Below, one piece after another: positions 29,721 through 47,509 of a stretch of 64,000 nucleotides of DNA. The notes beneath the pieces are model-generated. The model made no database searches. It was not told the DNA's origin and saw only the letters and a list, made by a program, of their open reading frames with translations. The DNA lies in NCBI GenBank assembly GCA_014653375.1, contig JACWEP010000001.1, positions 1 to 64,000 on the forward strand. Direction: 5' to 3'. A program made the translations under genes and the position numbers. This stretch comes from Pelagibacterales bacterium SAG-MED48 (GTDB taxonomy: Bacteria > Pseudomonadota > Alphaproteobacteria > Pelagibacterales > Pelagibacteraceae). Positions within the stretch are counted from its first letter, which is position 1, and each line of letters starts with the position of its first letter.

Positions 29721-31100
29721 ATGAAATATATAAGCACAAGAAATAGTAAAGAAACATTTGAATTTAAAGAAGTTTTTATAAAAGGGTTGGCAGATGATGG
29801 TGGTTTATTTATACCTCAGTCACTCAATAAGTATAGCGATACAGATATTAATAGTTTTAGAGAACTTGAATATAATGAGTTAGCAAAAAAAATTATCTCT
29901 ACTTTTATTGGTGATTTTATGAATGAGAATGATTTAAGTAAAATCATTGATAAATCTTATTCAGTTTTTAGAAAAAAAAATGTTGTTAACTTAATAGAGG
30001 TCGGAGACAGGTCTGTACTTGAGTTATTTCACGGCCCTACTTTAGCTTTCAAGGACGTTGCAATGCAACTCTTAGGCAATTTTTATGAATATTATCTCAA
30101 CAATGAAAATCAAAAAATTAATATTGTTGTAGCAACTTCAGGAGATACTGGAGCAGCAGCAATAGATGCCATTAAAGGAAAAAAAAATATTAACATATTC
30201 GTTCTTCATCCGCATAATCGTGTTTCATCAGTTCAAAGAAAATTGATGACAACTGGAAAAGAGCAAAATGTATTTAATATTGCAATTAATGGAAACTTTG
30301 ATGATTGCCAGAATCTAGTTAAATCAATGTTTGCTGATAAGAGTTTTTCAAATGAAATTAAAATGTCTGGAGTTAATTCAATCAATTGGGCAAGAATTAT
30401 TGCACAAAGTGTATATTATTTTTATAGTTATTTTTTAGCAAAAAAAAAAGATGAGCCTGTAAATTTTTCAGTTCCTACTGGAAATTTTGGAGACGTGTAT
30501 GCTGGATATTTAGCAAAAAAAATGGGTCTTCCTATTAATAAATTGATTGTTGCGACTAATCAAAATGATATTTTGCATAGAGCTATTTCAAAAGGTAGTT
30601 ACGAGGTAGAAAAAGTTGCAGAAACTATTTCTCCAAGCATGGACATACAAATTGCAAGTAATTTTGAACGACTTATATACGATTTAAACAATGGTGATGA
30701 TATGCAAACAATTAATGTAATGAATGATATTAAAGAAAAAGGCAAGTATATAATTGATCAACAAAGATTAGATAGAATTAACAGTGATTTTTTATCTTCA
30801 AAAATGAACGAAGATGAAGTTTTAAAAACTATTAAAGAAGTTTATGAAAAATTTGATTTAGTTTTAGATCCACACAGTGCGATAGGTTACGGAGCTTTTG
30901 ATAAAGTTAATATAAGTGGAAACAATATAGTTTTGGCTACAGCGCATCCTTGCAAGTTTCCTGATGCAATAAAAAATGCTATAAACTTAAAAGCTGAACT
31001 ACCTAAAGAACTAATGTATATTTTGAGCGAAAAAGAAAATTATGATATTATCGATAATAATGTTGATAAAGTAAAACAACACATAAAAGAAAGAATTTAA
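29721..31100 (+). CDS. thrC: Threonine synthase
   Basis: This PLP enzyme converts O-phosphohomoserine to threonine. The N terminus MKYISTRNS is typical, the PLP lysine lies in HGPTLAFKDVAMQ (~101-113), and VATSGDTGAAAIDA (~138-151) is the phosphate-binding segment. The length is 459 residues. Homoserine kinase (thrB) lies only 2 kb away on the other strand, so both final threonine steps are in this window. It shares one base with the peroxiredoxin start. Confidence 0.97.
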   Translation: MKYISTRNSKETFEFKEVFIKGLADDGGLFIPQSLNKYSDTDINSFRELEYNELAKKIISTFIGDFMNENDLSKIIDKSYSVFRKKNVVNLIEVGDRSVLELFHGPTLAFKDVAMQLLGNFYEYYLNNENQKINIVVATSGDTGAAAIDAIKGKKNINIFVLHPHNRVSSVQRKLMTTGKEQNVFNIAINGNFDDCQNLVKSMFADKSFSNEIKMSGVNSINWARIIAQSVYYFYSYFLAKKKDEPVNFSVPTGNFGDVYAGYLAKKMGLPINKLIVATNQNDILHRAISKGSYEVEKVAETISPSMDIQIASNFERLIYDLNNGDDMQTINVMNDIKEKGKYIIDQQRLDRINSDFLSSKMNEDEVLKTIKEVYEKFDLVLDPHSAIGYGAFDKVNISGNNIVLATAHPCKFPDAIKNAINLKAELPKELMYILSEKENYDIIDNNVDKVKQHIKERI

Positions 31101-31585
31101 TGAATATAAAAGAAAATGATAATTTACCAAATTCAGAAGTTTTTGTTCTTGAAGACGGAGAACCAGTTAAAAAAACTATTGAAGATTTATTTAAAAATAA
31201 AAAAATAGTAATATTTGGTCTTCCAGGGGCTTATACGTCGGTATGCTCTGCTAAGCATTTACCTGGTTATGTAAATATGAATGCAAAATATAAAAAGAAA
31301 GGAATTGATCAAATTATATGCATTTCGGTAAATGACCCATTTGTAATGAATGCCTGGGGAAAAGAGAATAGTGTAGGGGATAAAATTTTAATGATAGGTG
31401 ATCCATTTTTAAATTTTACTAAGGCAATAGGTGCCGATGTAGATAAAAGTGGCAGAGGTCTTGGTGTAAGATCAAATCGATATACAATGCTAGTAGATAA
31501 TATGAAAGTTGTTAGACTGCAGGAAGAAAAAGATACAGGGTCTTGTGAAATTTCAGCTGCTGAAAATTTTTTAGAATTAGTTTAG
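31100..31585 (+). CDS. Peroxiredoxin, Prx5/AhpC-TSA type
   Basis: It reduces hydroperoxides. The peroxidatic Cys lies in PGAYTSVCSAKHLPGY (~43-58), which is the Prx5 sequence type (P-G-A-x-T-x-x-C). The Arg partner lies in VRSNRYTMLVD (~122-132). A second Cys in the GSCEISAAE segment near the C terminus could be resolving. The length is 161 residues. Its 3' end overlaps convergent rnhA by nine bases. Confidence 0.94.
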   Translation: MNIKENDNLPNSEVFVLEDGEPVKKTIEDLFKNKKIVIFGLPGAYTSVCSAKHLPGYVNMNAKYKKKGIDQIICISVNDPFVMNAWGKENSVGDKILMIGDPFLNFTKAIGADVDKSGRGLGVRSNRYTMLVDNMKVVRLQEEKDTGSCEISAAENFLELV

Positions 31586-40599: not shown

Positions 40600-43173
40600 T
40601 TAAGCAACCATACTCTCTGCTTTTTGTAAATCAACAGCAACTAACTGACTAATCCCTTTTTCTGGCATAGTAACCCCATAAAGTCTGTTCATTTTGGACA
40701 TCGTTAGTGCATGGTGAGTAACAATAATAAATTTGGTATTTGTAATTTTTATTAACTCTTCTAGTAAGTTACAAAATCTCGTCACATTGGCATCATCTAA
40801 TGGTGCATCAACTTCATCTAATACACAAATAGGAGATGGGTTAGTTAAAAAAACTGCAAAAATTAAAGAAAGAGCAGTAAGAGCCTGTTCACCGCCTGAC
40901 AATAAAGTTATTGATTGAAGCCTTTTGCCTGGAGGACTGACTAACATTTCTAAACCAGCTTCCAAAGGGTCGTCAGAGTCTACTAATTCCAGTTTGGCAT
41001 TTCCACCATTGAATAGTTTTGTGTAAACTTCGTTAAATTTTCTATTAACTTTTTCAAATGCTTCAATTAGTCTTTCTCTTCCTTTTTGGTTTAGTTCATT
41101 AATACTATCTTTTAATTTTATTATTGCCGTTACTAAGTCAGCACGATCTTGTTCCATCTTTTTAATTTCATCTTCATATTTACTTGTTTCCTCATCAGCT
41201 TTTAAATTAACTGATCCTAATTTTTCTCTTTCTTGTTTTTTTTTATCTAAGGCATCTTCTTGATCAACAGCATCAGGTAATTCTTCAATGCCATTTAAAT
41301 TTGAATTTTCTAAAATATTTTCTTCAGATAAATCAAGTTCAGAATTTATTCTATCTAATAGATCACTTTTTCTTTTATTTAACCCTTCAATAGTTGCCCC
41401 AGAGCTTGCTTTACGTTCTCTGATTTGGATCGATTGCTCTTGTATCTCGTTTAGTTGTGATCTTAATGACTCAATTGTTTGATCAGTTTCTTCTATAACT
41501 ACATCATTATCAATTTTATCTTTATCTGAAATTCTAAGGTTTTCTGAAATTTGACCTTTTCTTTCAGCTTGAACTTTTGGCTGATTATCTAATTCTGTTA
41601 ATTGTGTTGCAAATTTATTTTTTCTTTCTGTTAACTCTGCAACCATCTTTTCTGAGTTTGCTAGTAAGTTTTTCCAACTTTCAATTTCAGTTTCGATAGT
41701 TTTAATCCTTTCATTACGCTTAATAGACTCGTTTTTAATAGATTGATTTTTACTATATGCATCAGCATATTTTTCTTGAAGTAGTTTTATATTTTGTGAT
41801 TTTTTATTTACACTTAATAGCTCGCCTCTGCTTTTTTCATCTTTTAAATTACTTAAAAAATTATCTAGCTCTATATTACACCTGTCAAGTAGGGTTACAG
41901 CTTGATTTATTTCGTTATTATCAATCAATTCCTTCACTCTATCTATAGAGTTTTTAACATTTTTAATTGGTCCTACGCTTATATTTAAGGTTCCTTCAGC
42001 AATAGCACTAACGACTTCATCTACTGCTTCTTGTTCTTTTTTAAGTTCTCTCTTCGCGTTCTCTAATTCGTCGTTTGACAACTTTTCAGTTTCAAAATAT
42101 TTAGAATCTATATCTATTAGATCTGCTTTTTCTTCTTTAAGTCTTTTTTCGTTTGAATTTGCATCAATAATAATTCCTCTCTCTCTAGAGATATCTTCGT
42201 CGAGAGTTTGAATTGATCCTTTAATACTCTCAATTTCATCTTGAATTCTAGTATTTTCTTCATCTAGACTTTGAAGTTCAAGATTAAGTCTCTGAATTCT
42301 TGATAAATTCTCAATATTTTTTTCACGCAGAGGTGAAACTTTATCTGTTGCTAATTTAATTAAGTTTTCAAGTTCAGATATTTTACTGTTAAAACCCTCA
42401 ACTTCTCCCTCAGCTTCATTATTAATTTCATTCTCAATTTTAATTTCTTTATCAATTTCTAATAATTTTAAATAATATAGTCCAGCTTCAATTTTTTTTA
42501 TTTCTTCAGTAATTAATTTATATTTGGTAGCTTCTTCAGCTTGTTTTTGAAGATTTGCTAATTGTTTTTCTTGCTGTCTTCTAAGTTCATCTGCTCTTCT
42601 AAGATTATTTTCTGCCGCACCCAACCTAAGTTCAGCCTCGTGTCTTCTAACATGTAAACCTGAAATACCGGCAGCTTCTTCTAAAATAGCTCTTCGATCA
42701 GTTGGTTTTGCAGTTACTAATGCACCAATACGTCCCTGACTAATCATTGATGGAGAGTGAGCCCCTGTAGATAGGTCAGCAAAAAACATCTGAGCATCTC
42801 TTGCTCTTACTTCTTTATCATTAATATAAAATTTAGAACCTTTATCTTTTTCAATTTTTCTTCTAACACTAATTTGATCAAATTCACGATATTGAACTGG
42901 TCCTTCATTATTTTTATTATCAACATCAATAGAAACTTCAGCAATATTTTTAGAGGCCTTGTTTGATGTACCGGAAAAAATTACATCTTCCATCCCAGAG
43001 CCTCGCATACTTTTTGCAGATGTTTCTCCCATGACCCATCTCAAAGACTCTACAATGTTTGATTTTCCACAACCATTAGGACCTACAATTCCTGTTAGAC
43101 CTTCTTCGATTAAAAAATTTGTTTTATCAGCAAATGATTTAAATCCATTAAGTTGGATTTTTTTAAACTCCAT
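40600..43173 (-). CDS. smc: Chromosome segregation ATPase SMC, unusually short, hinge not recognisable
   Basis: This is a condensin-type ATPase that compacts and segregates the chromosome. The N-terminal head holds Walker A GPNGCGKSN (~31-39). The C-terminal head holds the signature LLSGGEQ (~757-763), Walker B PICVLDEVDAPLDD (~781-794) and a switch His (THHALTMSK, ~819-827). The protein is 857 residues, against about 1150-1200 for typical bacterial SMC. Coiled coil runs ~170-380 and ~455-715. The ~70 residues between (383-455) contain only helical, charged sequence around NISVGPIKN, and I cannot find the glycine-rich globular hinge that normally dimerises SMC. Both head halves appear complete, so it is not a truncated gene. 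Confidence 0.93.
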   Translation of the reverse strand: MEFKKIQLNGFKSFADKTNFLIEEGLTGIVGPNGCGKSNIVESLRWVMGETSAKSMRGSGMEDVIFSGTSNKASKNIAEVSIDVDNKNNEGPVQYREFDQISVRRKIEKDKGSKFYINDKEVRARDAQMFFADLSTGAHSPSMISQGRIGALVTAKPTDRRAILEEAAGISGLHVRRHEAELRLGAAENNLRRADELRRQQEKQLANLQKQAEEATKYKLITEEIKKIEAGLYYLKLLEIDKEIKIENEINNEAEGEVEGFNSKISELENLIKLATDKVSPLREKNIENLSRIQRLNLELQSLDEENTRIQDEIESIKGSIQTLDEDISRERGIIIDANSNEKRLKEEKADLIDIDSKYFETEKLSNDELENAKRELKKEQEAVDEVVSAIAEGTLNISVGPIKNVKNSIDRVKELIDNNEINQAVTLLDRCNIELDNFLSNLKDEKSRGELLSVNKKSQNIKLLQEKYADAYSKNQSIKNESIKRNERIKTIETEIESWKNLLANSEKMVAELTERKNKFATQLTELDNQPKVQAERKGQISENLRISDKDKIDNDVVIEETDQTIESLRSQLNEIQEQSIQIRERKASSGATIEGLNKRKSDLLDRINSELDLSEENILENSNLNGIEELPDAVDQEDALDKKKQEREKLGSVNLKADEETSKYEDEIKKMEQDRADLVTAIIKLKDSINELNQKGRERLIEAFEKVNRKFNEVYTKLFNGGNAKLELVDSDDPLEAGLEMLVSPPGKRLQSITLLSGGEQALTALSLIFAVFLTNPSPICVLDEVDAPLDDANVTRFCNLLEELIKITNTKFIIVTHHALTMSKMNRLYGVTMPEKGISQLVAVDLQKAESMVA

Positions 43174-43181
43174 GCACTAAC

Positions 43182-43760
43182 TTATATCAGTTTTTCTAGA
43201 GCTTTTTTTAAATTTTTGTAATTGAGAGTTTTTTCGAACTTAGCGTCATTAATTATTATCGTAGGGGTAGAATTAACTTTGTAGTTTTTAACACCATCGA
43301 TTCTGTCATTTAAAACAAAATCCTCAATTTCCTGGTTGTTTAAGCAGGCCTTAAAATCAATATCAAACCCTTCATTCTTTAAAAATTTTTCAAGGTTCTT
43401 ATTTGCTTCTTCAGCTGAACTACCTTTGACCCATTTTTGTTGATTTGCATATAAACTATTTAATATTTTCGAATCACTATCATTTTTACATTGTGAAATT
43501 TTTGCAGCATTAAAAGCAGCTATATCTAAAGGAAAGTGTCTAAATTCAATTTTGGCTAAACCAGTATCTAGGTAATCTTTTTTAAGTTGCGGATATACGT
43601 CTTTATGAAAATTTGCACAGTAACTACAGGTTAATGATTCAAAAGCAATAATGGTTATTTTTGCATCTTCATTGCCTACAACAATTCTTTTCATGTCATC
43701 TGCATTTACAATTGTAATTGTGCTAAAAAATATTGTTATAAAAATTAGAATTTTTTTCAT
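43182..43760 (-). CDS. DsbA-like periplasmic thiol-disulfide oxidoreductase
   Basis: A cleavable signal peptide (to ~20, ITIVNA) is followed by a thioredoxin-fold domain with the CxxC active site CSYC (in ESLTCSYCANFHKD, ~46-59), a helical insert, and a cis-Pro segment VNSTPTIIINDAKF (~161-174). The length is 192 residues. It resembles DsbA/Com1-type oxidases. It overlaps the dciA stop by ATGA, so it is co-transcribed with dciA and smc. Confidence 0.9.
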   Translation of the reverse strand: MKKILIFITIFFSTITIVNADDMKRIVVGNEDAKITIIAFESLTCSYCANFHKDVYPQLKKDYLDTGLAKIEFRHFPLDIAAFNAAKISQCKNDSDSKILNSLYANQQKWVKGSSAEEANKNLEKFLKNEGFDIDFKACLNNQEIEDFVLNDRIDGVKNYKVNSTPTIIINDAKFEKTLNYKNLKKALEKLI

Positions 43761-44245
43761 TTTTCTTTAAATACTTTGGTTAATTCAATAAGTGACTTTT
43801 TAATTTTATCATTCTTAACATCATTAATTTTACTTTGGTATTTATTAATTGCGACATTTTCTTGGCCAGTCTCTTTTTTTTCAAAGATTTTTTGCTCATC
43901 ATCAAAGCTAATAAATTTCAGCTTTTCTATTACTGAATAACCAAAAAAACTATTCATTTTATCTAAAATTTCTTTTTTAGAATATTCCAAATCAACCTCA
44001 TGCCCTCTTTTTACCATTACCAATAAAGTGCTAACCCCAAACCTGTTAGAGTTCTTGAATGTCTTTGGATAACAAACTTTAAATAGTTCATCTCCAACAA
44101 TATATCTCCAGTTATCAAGTGTTTCAGAATAAATATGACCCTTCTTATTAATGATTTTTTTTACATTTTTAGGTAAAGTGTCCTTAAAAGATCTTAAACC
44201 TTGAATGGTTACATTTCCACGCTTAGTATTATTTTTAAATTGCAT
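43757..44245 (-). CDS. DUF721/DciA-like protein
   Basis: This DUF721-domain protein has its conserved core at DNWRYIVGDELFKVCYPKTF (~43-62) and VKRGHEVDLEYSKKEILDKM (~75-94). DciA relatives load or interact with the replicative helicase DnaB in bacteria that lack DnaC, but that role here is inferred. I prefer the start MQFKNNTKRG at 44245; an ATG four codons upstream (44257) is possible. The start abuts the mutY ATG on the other strand with no spacer. Confidence 0.8.
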   Translation of the reverse strand: MQFKNNTKRGNVTIQGLRSFKDTLPKNVKKIINKKGHIYSETLDNWRYIVGDELFKVCYPKTFKNSNRFGVSTLLVMVKRGHEVDLEYSKKEILDKMNSFFGYSVIEKLKFISFDDEQKIFEKKETGQENVAINKYQSKINDVKNDKIKKSLIELTKVFKEK

Positions 44246-45229
44246 ATGAAAGATCAAATAATAACAAATAAAATTCTTAATTGGTATGATATTAATAAAA
44301 GATCATTGCCTTGGCGAAAAAAAAACTCTTCAAAAAAAAGGCAATATTACACTTTAGTCAGTGAATTTATGCTTCAACAAACTCAAGTTGTAACAGTGAT
44401 ACCTTATTTCAGTCGGTTTATTAAAAATATTCCAGATCTAGAAACTTTAGCTAGTTTTGAAAATCAAAAACTTATTAAGCTTTGGGAGGGTCTTGGTTAT
44501 TATTCAAGAGTTAGAAATTTAAAAAAAACTGCTCAAGTCATTATTAAAGATTTTAATAAAAAACTGCCTGATAATTTTTTAGATTTAAAATCATTACCAG
44601 GTATTGGAGACTATACTGCAAGCGCAATATCAGCTATTGCATTTAATAAACCTTTTATTCCATTAGATGGCAATGTTGAAAGAGTTTTGAAAAGATATCT
44701 ATACTTAAAGAAAGAAAACCAAATACAAAAAGATAATTTAATCAAAAGTAAAAAGGTTTTAGGAACCTCAAGTAGATCAAGTGATTATGCTCAGGCACTA
44801 ATGGAATTAGGTGCACTAATCTGTAGACCTAACAATCCTCTTTGTGAAAAATGCCCAATCTCAAAAAACTGTAAATCCTTTGCTAAGCAAGATTTTATTT
44901 TAAATAAAATTAAAAAGATTAACAAAGATAAATACTTTTTACTCAAAGTTTATAAAAAAAATGATAAATATTTATTAGTCAAAAATAAAAATTTTAATTT
45001 TTTAAAAAATTTTAACATTTTTCCAATGCAGGAATTAATTAGACCTAAAAACTTTAACCAAAATTTAAATTTTAAAATGTCTAATATGAATATGAATATT
45101 GAGATTAAAAATGATAAGATCACTAAACCAATTCCGTTTTCTTATTGGATTAATCCTAAAAAAATAAAAAACTATACTTTACCAACTTTTACGAAAAAAA
45201 TTGTTAAATATTTAGAAAATCATAAATGA
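44246..45229 (+). CDS. mutY: A/G-specific adenine glycosylase MutY
   Basis: It removes adenine mispaired with 8-oxoguanine. Typical parts are ILNWYDINKRSLPWR at the N terminus, the catalytic Glu in SEFMLQQTQV (~36-45), the helix-hairpin-helix LPGIGDYTASAI (~109-120) with Asp in LDGNVERVLKRY, and the 4Fe-4S cluster C-x6-C-x2-C-x5-C in CRPNNPLCEKCPISKNC (~191-207). A start upstream at 44201 would add 15 residues unlike the family, so I use 44246 (327 residues). The C-terminal NUDIX-like domain appears short. The next gene overlaps by ATGA. Confidence 0.94.
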   Translation: MKDQIITNKILNWYDINKRSLPWRKKNSSKKRQYYTLVSEFMLQQTQVVTVIPYFSRFIKNIPDLETLASFENQKLIKLWEGLGYYSRVRNLKKTAQVIIKDFNKKLPDNFLDLKSLPGIGDYTASAISAIAFNKPFIPLDGNVERVLKRYLYLKKENQIQKDNLIKSKKVLGTSSRSSDYAQALMELGALICRPNNPLCEKCPISKNCKSFAKQDFILNKIKKINKDKYFLLKVYKKNDKYLLVKNKNFNFLKNFNIFPMQELIRPKNFNQNLNFKMSNMNMNIEIKNDKITKPIPFSYWINPKKIKNYTLPTFTKKIVKYLENHK

Positions 45230-46377
45230 AAAAAATTGCAATAATAGGAGCTGGCATTTCAGGTTTATTCATTGCAAACTTGTTTAAAGAAAATCTTGAT
45301 TACCAGGTAACTATTTATGAAAAAAATACTTCAATCAATCTAGATGAAGGATATGGAATACAGCTATCAACAAACAGCATCAGACTTCTTAATAGAATTG
45401 GATTTAATACTTTAGATAACAAAGATAGATTTAACCCTGAAAAAATCGATTTTTATGAAATTAATTATGAAAAAAAAATATGTGATCTATATATTTCAGA
45501 TTTTAATTCTGAAAATTGTAAATACACAACGTTAAAAAGATCTAAATTAGTTGAATTTTTAAAAGATAAATTGGAGGACAACATAATTAAGTATGATCAT
45601 AATATTGAAAAAATTGAAAAAAATAATAATCAAATAATTTTAACTTTTAATGAAAGTATTAAGGTAGTTTGTGATCATTTGATTATTTCTGATGGTGTTT
45701 TTTCTAAAGGTAAATCTTTAATTTCTAACAATTTAACAAAACCTACTTACAACGACTCGATTGCAATTAGAGGTAATATTTCAAGAAAAAACCTTAATAA
45801 TTTAAATGAAAAAAATATTTCTTTATTTATGGGGAACAATTTTCATTACGTAATTTATCCAGTAAATAACGATAATGAAGCTTTTAATTTTATTGGAGTT
45901 TTAAAATATAAATTAACAATAAATGAGCTTGATAATTATGGTCTTTTTAAAGAGGAAGGTTTCATTCAGAGTGTTAAAGACAAATTACAAAATAAAATAT
46001 CAGCAAATATTTTAGATAATCTTAATAATATTAAATGTTTTCCAGTTTTTGTTAGCAAAGGCTACCTTAAACCAGGTAATAATATCTTTTTAATTGGAGA
46101 TGCTTTTTTTGCTTTCCCACCTTCATTTGCTCAAGGAGCTTCTCAATCTATCGAAAGTGGTTCAGAGTTATTTGATAGTATTATAAATAATAAAAATAAT
46201 TTTTATGAAAATAGAGCTTCAAAAGTAAAAATGATTAATAATAGATCAAAACTAAATCAATTTGCTTTTCACGTATCTAACCCGATCATAGTTTTTTTTA
46301 GAAATTTCAGTTTAAAGATTCTAACAAAGAATAAGAAATTCTTAGAAAATTATTTGGGTAAAATTTATAAGAATTAA
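45226..46377 (+). CDS. FAD-dependent monooxygenase (UbiH/PHBH-like family)
   Basis: This is an aromatic-ring-type flavoprotein hydroxylase of 383 residues. The N-terminal Rossmann motif IIGAGISGLFIANLF (~5-19) and the second FAD motif LIGDAFFAFPPSFAQGAS (~288-305) are clear. A DG-like motif in LIISDGVFSKGKS lies near 154. It could hydroxylate a ubiquinone precursor or another aromatic compound; the sequence alone does not decide. It is co-transcribed with mutY. Its stop interlocks with that of ccrM (TTAA). Confidence 0.82.
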   Translation: MKKIAIIGAGISGLFIANLFKENLDYQVTIYEKNTSINLDEGYGIQLSTNSIRLLNRIGFNTLDNKDRFNPEKIDFYEINYEKKICDLYISDFNSENCKYTTLKRSKLVEFLKDKLEDNIIKYDHNIEKIEKNNNQIILTFNESIKVVCDHLIISDGVFSKGKSLISNNLTKPTYNDSIAIRGNISRKNLNNLNEKNISLFMGNNFHYVIYPVNNDNEAFNFIGVLKYKLTINELDNYGLFKEEGFIQSVKDKLQNKISANILDNLNNIKCFPVFVSKGYLKPGNNIFLIGDAFFAFPPSFAQGASQSIESGSELFDSIINNKNNFYENRASKVKMINNRSKLNQFAFHVSNPIIVFFRNFSLKILTKNKKFLENYLGKIYKN

Positions 46378-47444
46378 TTTTTGGAAATTAATCTTTGCCT
46401 TAGATAATCTATTGGAAATATTCTTCCATTAATATCACAATGCCAATAAGTCCAGCCATTACAGCTTTCAGCTCCTAAAATTGTTGCTGCAACTTTATGA
46501 ATAGATCCTTCAGTTTGTTCATGTTTAATACTTCCATCAGCCATAATTCTTGCTGTAATTTTTTTCTTATTATCAAAAATATTTGTACCAGGCTTAATTA
46601 TGCCAAGCTCTACAAGTGAGCCAAAAGGTATTCTTGGTTTAGATCTATTATTTTTTAAAGTATCTAAGAAATTATCTTCAATAGGTTTTGTATTTTTTAA
46701 TCTTTGTTCAGCTGCTTTAAAATAATTCTTTTCTTTTTCTATACCATAATAATTCCGACCTAATTTTTTAGCTACAGTGGCTGTTGTTCCTGATCCTAAA
46801 AATGGATCTAAAATCATGTCATTTTTATTGGATGATGCTAATAAAACCCTATGTAGCAGAGATTCTGGTTTTTGGGTCGAATGTATTTTTTTGCCATTTT
46901 TTTTAAGTCTTTCTGGGCCACTACAGATTGGTAAATTCCAGTTAGATCTCATTTGCAGGTCATCATTTAAACATTTTAATGATTGATAATTAAAAGTATA
47001 TTTTGATTTTTCACTCTTTGATGCCCAGATCAATGTTTCATGAGCATTGGTAAATCGTGTTCCTCTAAAATTAGGCATTGGATTATTTTTATTCCATATC
47101 ACATCATTTAAAATCCAGAATCCTAAATTTTGAATGGCAGTACCCACTCTAAAAATATTGTGATAACTACCTATGACCCAGATGGCTCCATCTTTTTTTA
47201 AAACTCTTTTGCATTCAGCTAACCATGCGTATGTAAACTCGTCATATTTTTTAAAATTTTCAAATTGATCCCATTTATCATTTACAGCACTGACTTTAGA
47301 TCTGTCTGGTCTAGTAAGCTCACCTTTTAACTGCAAATTGTATGGGGGGTCTGCAAAAACTAAATCAAAAGTTTCACTTGGAATTTTTTTTAATTCCTCG
47401 AGACTGTCTCCGTTAATAATTTTATTTTTAAAATCAGCTTTCAT
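46374..47444 (-). CDS. ccrM: Cell-cycle DNA adenine methyltransferase CcrM (GANTC)
   Basis: This is a beta-class N6-adenine methyltransferase of the CcrM family, which methylates GANTC in alphaproteobacteria. The catalytic DPPY lies in VFADPPYNLQL (~27-37), and the SAM motif DPFLGSGTTATVAKKLGR (~213-230) lies downstream, as in the beta class. The C-terminal extension (MADGSIKHEQ...CNGWTYWHC) is the RAMA-type domain typical of CcrM. I chose MKADFKNKIINGDSLE (47444) rather than an ATG eight codons upstream. The length is 356 residues. It is a solitary enzyme with no restriction partner adjacent. Confidence 0.92.
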   Translation of the reverse strand: MKADFKNKIINGDSLEELKKIPSETFDLVFADPPYNLQLKGELTRPDRSKVSAVNDKWDQFENFKKYDEFTYAWLAECKRVLKKDGAIWVIGSYHNIFRVGTAIQNLGFWILNDVIWNKNNPMPNFRGTRFTNAHETLIWASKSEKSKYTFNYQSLKCLNDDLQMRSNWNLPICSGPERLKKNGKKIHSTQKPESLLHRVLLASSNKNDMILDPFLGSGTTATVAKKLGRNYYGIEKEKNYFKAAEQRLKNTKPIEDNFLDTLKNNRSKPRIPFGSLVELGIIKPGTNIFDNKKKITARIMADGSIKHEQTEGSIHKVAATILGAESCNGWTYWHCDINGRIFPIDYLRQRLISKN

Positions 47445-47460
47445 TTGTATGAAGTAATTA

Positions 47461-47509
47461 GACTCCAATTGGATTCTTGGGTCAACCTGAGATTGAATTA
47501 ACTGGATTC
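47461..47509. promoter_or_regulatory. Cluster of three GANTC methylation sites upstream of ccrM
   Basis: GACTC (47461-47465), GATTC (47472-47476) and GATTC (47505-47509) lie within 49 bases, in the ~90-base gap between rnhB and ccrM. In Caulobacter the ccrM promoter is itself sensitive to GANTC methylation, so an autoregulatory site is plausible here. I see no convincing TTAA-N7-TTAA CtrA box. Confidence 0.6.

Follow-up and report, generated by a model that had tools for sequence, protein, structure and literature searches.

The Smc protein encoded in the stretch of DNA considered here, the 64,000 nucleotides at positions 1 to 64,000 of contig JACWEP010000001.1 of Pelagibacterales bacterium SAG-MED48 (the window), is intact and carries both ATPase half-heads and the coiled-coil arms, and it has no hinge. 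The SMC hinge, an alpha/beta fold, counts as a hallmark of these proteins, and its role, be it in dimerisation, as a gate for DNA or in the bypass of obstacles, is debated. The organism belongs to the SAR11 bacteria, which have been called the most abundant marine microorganisms (PMC10308909). A first-pass annotation, made by a model from the letters of the window, had proposed an 857-residue SMC with complete heads, coiled coil on both sides and neither a hinge nor a CxxC hook at its centre, and in each of these respects the description has held.

The absence of a hinge is more easily asserted than established in this group, and two arguments that might have been used for it were rejected. 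The Pfam model PF06470 (SMC_hinge) is silent on the window Smc, but at E <= 0.001 it also overlooks the hinge-bearing Smc of a Rhodobiaceae member (L168) and an 878-residue alphaproteobacterial Smc (L154); it matches 10 of 14 control genomes, Caulobacter lying outside those ten, and 91 of 289 genomes of the class, as against 181 for a hinge profile tuned to the group. Because PF06470 misses true hinges in the Alphaproteobacteria, a hinge absence called from Pfam is unreliable there, so that the check suggested in the first-pass annotation gave the silence it foresaw without being informative on its own. Nor is short length a proof of hinge loss, since SMC proteins of 865–881 residues with a hinge exist (L089–L091, L154, L160, L161), as the tuned hinge hidden Markov model (HMM) shows for such proteins of family f141 and of family f31, which is probably HIMB59. 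Short proteins that keep the hinge extend in fact over 865–984 residues (L089, L090, L091, L095, L098, L099, L154, L160 and L161), and represent a shortening of the arms without loss of the hinge.

The finding is carried by the tuned HMM, for which 30 full-length alphaproteobacterial Smc proteins served as the training set. Applied to 100 SMC proteins, it leaves 60 unmatched or at <= -1.2 bits, all of them from Pelagibacterales or family f24 and the window Smc among them, while the other 40 score >= 70.4 bits, 30 of these being training rows and the remaining 10 scoring 70.4–172. A second set shares some members with the first, and 79 of its 80 loci were readable; here a hinge was recognised in 25 (>= 73.7 bits), 49 complete proteins were hinge-free (<= -0.8 bits or no match), and five truncated ones were left uncounted. 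When whole genomes were searched in six frames with a hinge profile of 23 rows, none of 197 genomes of the order gave a match, single-contig ones included, and 181 of the 289 class genomes did, some of which had supplied rows to the profile; the expectation that the hinge would be absent across many SAR11 genomes is thus borne out. In a draw of 197 order genomes the SMC_prok_B model matches 184, 180 of them strongly by our own count and 114 above its cut-off, and 13 have no SMC match, the drafts being incomplete; not all genomes of the order are therefore informative about the hinge. Profile–profile comparison with the hinge gave a probability of 0.3% and a placement in the head, not at the centre. 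None of the listed matches from the family and the order is a full-length orthologue, and, as no globular fold is predicted at the centre either, nothing that the first-pass annotation named as refuting was obtained.

At the level of the class, a count by eye gives 194 of the 289 genomes in which SMC is matched at better than 1e-50, and those of them that are hinge-free number 13: three Pelagibacterales, three of family f24, and seven that hold only fragments and were set aside because these fragments do not span the hinge. By our own count, SMC_prok_B finds nothing better than 1e-50 in a further 91 class genomes and no match at all in four, so that a true Smc may be missing from many Alphaproteobacteria, small genomes being frequent among them.

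What has been removed can be followed in a profile–profile alignment of the SAR11 Smc with hinge-bearing alphaproteobacterial Smc, to which it is 41% identical over 822 profile columns. Residues 1–387 pair one to one and without gaps with the full-length protein, whose residues 388–740 then have no reliable counterpart, and pairing resumes at SAR11 residue 448, equivalent to full-length residue 741. In the reference L168 the hinge occupies residues 501–635, so that 60 residues in SAR11 stand in place of 113 residues of N-terminal arm, the 135-residue hinge and 105 residues of C-terminal arm, with breakpoints uncertain by some residues, as the coiled coil is poorly conserved. Judged from these alignments, one internal loss has taken the hinge together with the hinge-proximal part of the arm on either side, some 100 residues each. 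In Bacillus subtilis, viability follows arm length with a periodicity of 91 residues, and the natural arm lengths of Smc proteins in general step by roughly 100 residues (PMC5344682); the loss on each side would, in our own estimation, come close to both values. The resulting gene and its parts are laid out as follows.

40600–43173, minus strand: smc gene including the stop codon, hinge-less Smc of 857 residues (open reading frame and TIGR02168)
42658–43173, minus strand: N-terminal half of the ATPase head, residues 1–172 (first long helix predicted from residue 173; boundary approximate)
43057–43083, minus strand: Walker A, GPNGCGKSN, residues 31–39 (invariant in a 15-row alignment)
42013–42657, minus strand: N-terminal coiled-coil arm, residues 173–387 (ungapped against hinge-bearing Smc in the profile–profile alignment)
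41833–42012, minus strand: apex, residues 388–447 (profile–profile alignment, hinge position of L168 and apex length classes)
41911–41919, minus strand: predicted hairpin turn, residues 419–421 (AlphaFold2)
41104–41832, minus strand: C-terminal coiled-coil arm, residues 448–690, with a non-helical break at 613–634 (AlphaFold2 and profile alignment; head boundary approximate)
40603–41103, minus strand: C-terminal half of the ATPase head, residues 691–857 (alignment, AlphaFold2, Foldseek matches to SMC heads)
40885–40902, minus strand: ABC signature LSGGEQ, residues 758–763 (invariant in the 15-row alignment)
40792–40830, minus strand: Walker B and D-loop, ICVLDEVDAPLDD, residues 782–794 (D786-E787-V788-D789 invariant in the 15-row alignment)

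The protein is matched by the NCBIfam model TIGR02168 (SMC_prok_B) at 667.3 bits, over a cut-off of 567.35, the match being split into two stretches, and the Rad50 and ASRP models stay far under their cut-offs (Rad50_Halo, 51.7 against 1000 bits). Among 109 hinge-less proteins of 780–900 residues, the exact Walker A, signature and Walker B patterns are kept in 109, 104 and 102, respectively. A Rad50-type hook was considered for the centre and rejected, for on direct reading the window Smc has no CxxC there, and among the 92 apices of its relatives a single one holds the motif, some cysteine being present in 52 of the 92.

The AlphaFold2 (AF2) monomer models of the 857-residue form and of a sister form of 798 residues (L120) have the long helices of antiparallel coiled-coil arms on both sides, and neither strands nor a globular fold are predicted at the apex of either. 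In the 857-residue form a helix at 258–418 is followed by a turn at 419–421, a second helix at 422–444, a break and a helix at 448–529, the block means of the predicted local distance difference test (pLDDT) being 59–77 across 391–450. The 798-residue forms are 59 residues shorter, the entire difference lying at the apex, where about one residue is left, and in L120 a helix at 251–389 passes through a three-residue turn (390–392) into a helix at 393–470, with pLDDT block means of 82–88 near the apex. With Foldseek the model of the window Smc finds SMC heads and SMC complexes, some chains of Rad50 and MukBEF appearing in the first 50.

Three explanations that would do away with a real loss have to be weighed against these data. 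A hinge too divergent to be recognised seems to us highly improbable: PF06470 does miss true alphaproteobacterial hinges, and weak tools can overlook one, but an apex of 60 residues, with 59 fewer in the 798-residue class, leaves no room for a domain of some 135 residues, no strands are predicted there, and the ten hinge-bearing proteins outside the training set still score 70–172 bits. A hinge provided by a separate small protein would account for retained function, and deserves hardly more credence, as the six-frame search matched nothing in the 197 order genomes. As for an assembly deletion or a pseudogene, the genome of the window consists of 67 contigs and is 75.56% complete, which might arouse suspicion; however, orthologues of the same length occur in single-contig genomes (G035, at 95% identity, G017, G026, G043, G063 and G078), so that the loss is not an assembly deletion, and the head motifs are retained in 100–109 of the 109 hinge-less proteins, depending on the motif, which leaves this explanation with next to no probability. 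Apparently broken smc genes do occur elsewhere: one carries an in-frame TAG (G052:C2:149616-150794), another has a frame that stops at 277 residues (L137), and in a third the match length is no multiple of three (L149).

The partners of Smc are kept. In the genome of the window ScpA and ScpB are encoded side by side (G000:C45:30203-30856 and 30936-31397), as the search recommended in the first-pass annotation has brought to light, and in the order they were found in 81 and 83 of 97 genomes, respectively; for ParB the count is 33 of 41 relatives, with the genome of the window among the 33. Used as a query, the window Smc matches nothing but itself in its own genome, and finds smc matches in 130 of 147 genomes of the family. 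As it is the sole Smc match and the partners are encoded, the protein is most simply the condensin Smc and not a side paralogue. One genome of 97% completeness (G131) has both ScpA and ScpB and no Smc match.

In a head tree of 48 chosen rows, which holds no actinobacterial sequence and whose bootstrap is not fully settled, the 16 Pelagibacterales rows form one clade (100/100) among the hinge-bearing Smc proteins of Alphaproteobacteria. The second hinge-less family, f24, which includes MarineAlpha6_Bin4, lies on a separate long branch, in one tree beside a hinge-bearing long branch. On the tree, hinge loss in Pelagibacterales and f24 needs two changes; two independent losses are not claimed, since the approximately unbiased (AU) test leaves a single origin standing (p 0.276). 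A locus titled Pelagibacteraceae bacterium SP38 (L156) has an Smc of the MarineAlpha6 type, and its label is possibly wrong.

The apex itself varies in an ordered manner. In 92 distinct Pelagibacteraceae proteins, a non-random set of 780–900 residues (20 were picked to cover the forms, and truncated proteins and L149 were excluded), its length is 46 (n = 21), 59/60 (n = 16), 105/106 (n = 52) or 131/132 residues (n = 3), and insertions and deletions are confined to a head loop, the region around 614–633 and the apex. The per-block conservation of the apex (0.31) counts rows that lack those columns as mismatches, and for this reason the length-matched comparison was relied upon instead, in which the apex shows a lower similarity than the arms beside it in seven of eight cases (0.39 as compared with 0.72 in one of these) and the same similarity in the eighth. 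The fraction of bulky hydrophobic residues is in slight excess at the apex, 0.28–0.34 against 0.21–0.29 in the adjoining arms, these being class means only. Length is thus restricted and sequence freer, which is the pattern that a length-constrained coiled coil would show. The classes recur across clades, with nine parsimony changes on a quick tree made without bootstrap; nine independent switches were nevertheless rejected, because in genus g3 the 46-residue apex resembles that of g1 (0.56) no less closely than the g1 apices resemble one another (0.52). This similarity is consistent with lineages having exchanged the apex or with a polymorphism of long standing, and suggests exchange rather than repeated invention.

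From all this we think it probable that the SAR11 Smc is an orthologous condensin Smc reduced to its core, the subunits of which are held by their arms and hairpin tips without a hinge gate. The heads would still engage with ATP and ScpAB would still bridge them, whereby the ATPase core responsible for the capture and movement of DNA would be retained, and away from the heads the subunits would be joined through contacts of the arms and of the hairpin tips instead of the hinge toroid; the pairing may depend on the tips or on arms and heads alone, and the different dimer interface put forward in the first-pass annotation is to be taken as a proposal. There are precedents for the parts of such an arrangement: arm contacts have been proposed to help dimerise a hinge-less B. 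subtilis Smc (PMC5526789), in B. subtilis the hinge can be exchanged for a zinc hook (PMC5344682), and a Wadjet core without the elbow-to-hinge segment still cleaves plasmid DNA when its ring is closed, which its authors read as loop extrusion, and is unable to bypass obstacles (PMC12647877). With the hinge gate missing and the arms short, the SAR11 complex would pass large obstacles poorly, which could be tolerable on a small chromosome with ParB-guided loading. The apex length classes would reflect the need for the right arm length and phase, a demand for which the arm-length experiments in B. subtilis give the precedent.

Several observations weigh against a core held in this way. No match to ScpA was obtained in 16 of the 97 order genomes, nor to ScpB in 14, most of them incomplete drafts, and the Pfam match to ScpA is weak and in many genomes N-terminal only, on account of which the bridging of the heads by ScpAB is counted as inferred. 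The low conservation of the apex argues against a specific conserved interface at the tip. The structural predictions are of monomers only, from shallow alignments, and the confidence of the models is moderate (predicted template modelling scores of 0.46 and 0.48). Finally, the ring of the Wadjet core is closed by a disulphide, and reduction abolishes its activity (PMC12647877), so that the arm-and-tip contact proposed for SAR11 would have to be strong.

The same data admit two other arrangements of the distal end. In a sharper form of the core reading, the hairpin tip would have become a module of its own for dimerisation: packed together as a four-helix bundle, a pair of hairpins would replace the hinge one for one and give a stable ring. 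The hydrophobic excess of the apex, the recurrence, by eye, of a similar tip (KELI..N..A..LLD) in apices of 46 and 105 residues, and the replacement of the B. subtilis hinge by a zinc hook (PMC5344682) speak for it; however, the tip sequence differs between classes, the 798-residue form has just a three-residue turn, and the apex is the less conserved part in the seven comparisons mentioned, so that we regard this form as rather doubtful. It appears more doubtful still, and on balance unlikely, that there is no contact at all beyond the heads, the hairpins being joined solely by the ATP-engaged heads and ScpAB in a clamp or bridge and not in a closed ring. The bare hairpin apex predicted in the 798-residue form would suit such a clamp, as would the near absence of CxxC, although cysteine as such is frequent; yet the Wadjet work points to a closed ring as necessary (PMC12647877), and restricted lengths of apex and arms are unexpected for free tips.

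The SAR11 Smc can also be placed among the systems already described. With the bacterial Smc, as known from B. subtilis and TIGR02168, it shares orthologous heads, head-proximal arms and ScpA, ScpB and ParB, and differs in the missing hinge, the hinge-proximal arm lost on both sides and an apex predicted as a helical hairpin. Mini-Smc and Smc(zinc hook) of B. subtilis can function with shortened arms and a replaced hinge, and, in contrast to SAR11, the constructs described keep a folded dimerisation domain (PMC5344682). Rad50/SbcC and the archaea-specific SMC-related proteins (ASRP) ClsN and Sph have in common with it an SMC-like ATPase, coiled coil and the lack of an SMC hinge, but theirs is a zinc hook (PMC9389158). 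Wadjet ecJET(core) is a truncation of the SMC periphery of the same kind, engineered and disulphide-closed, whereas the SAR11 form is natural, and the same work ties channel-less hinges to longer arms, the opposite of SAR11 with its shorter arms and no hinge (PMC12647877). Long-armed Smc proteins with channel-less hinges are found in Acetobacter and relatives (PMC12647877), and unusually long Smc frames, of 1353–1531 residues, occur in four other members of the class in our data (G172, G303, G276 and G377).

A natural hinge-less SMC has been in print since 2025, from marine Actinobacteria (Sussfeld et al., 2025, PMC12153180), and is likewise abundant in the ocean and made of heads and coiled coil without hinge or CXXC; it is actinobacterial, whereas the SAR11 Smc nests in the Alphaproteobacteria in a tree that has no actinobacterial rows, and the two are compared here by description only. 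SAR11 or Pelagibacter does not occur in the text of that paper, and its sections on hinge-less SMC contain no analysis of ScpAB, arm length or apex classes. The searches made of the open-licence PMC literature showed no report of a hinge-less SMC in SAR11, nor did we find there the mapped loss, the kept partners or the apex length classes.

The surroundings of the gene are ordinary. Two upstream neighbours, which the first-pass annotation had named correctly, lie on the same strand, and an ATP synthase gene-1-like protein is encoded downstream of smc; elsewhere in the window, 46374–47468 (minus strand) looks like a CcrM-type DNA methyltransferase.

43182–43760, minus strand: thioredoxin/DsbA-like protein (PF13462, 122.4 bits)
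43757–44257, minus strand: DciA (PF05258, 47.4 bits)

As to what this could mean, SAR11 would possess a natural Smc-ScpAB motor made of the core only, without hinge gate or enlarged lumen and in many members without any apex domain, the arms turning back within three residues. Together with MarineAlpha6 and the marine Actinobacteria, it would present the hinge as a dispensable accessory for obstacle bypass that streamlined bacteria of the ocean have lost on more than one occasion, and arm length as quantised in steps of about one coiled-coil superhelical period. We put this forward as a serious possibility that still falls a little short of being probable. If true, such a motor would break the proposed trade-off by which arms lengthen where the hinge channel is lost. 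In its four apex length classes SAR11 supplies natural variants that bear on the coiled-coil length rule, and the SAR11 Smc, with its ScpA, ScpB and ParB, offers a natural system in which the abilities of a hinge-free motor, and the contacts that close its ring, could be approached.

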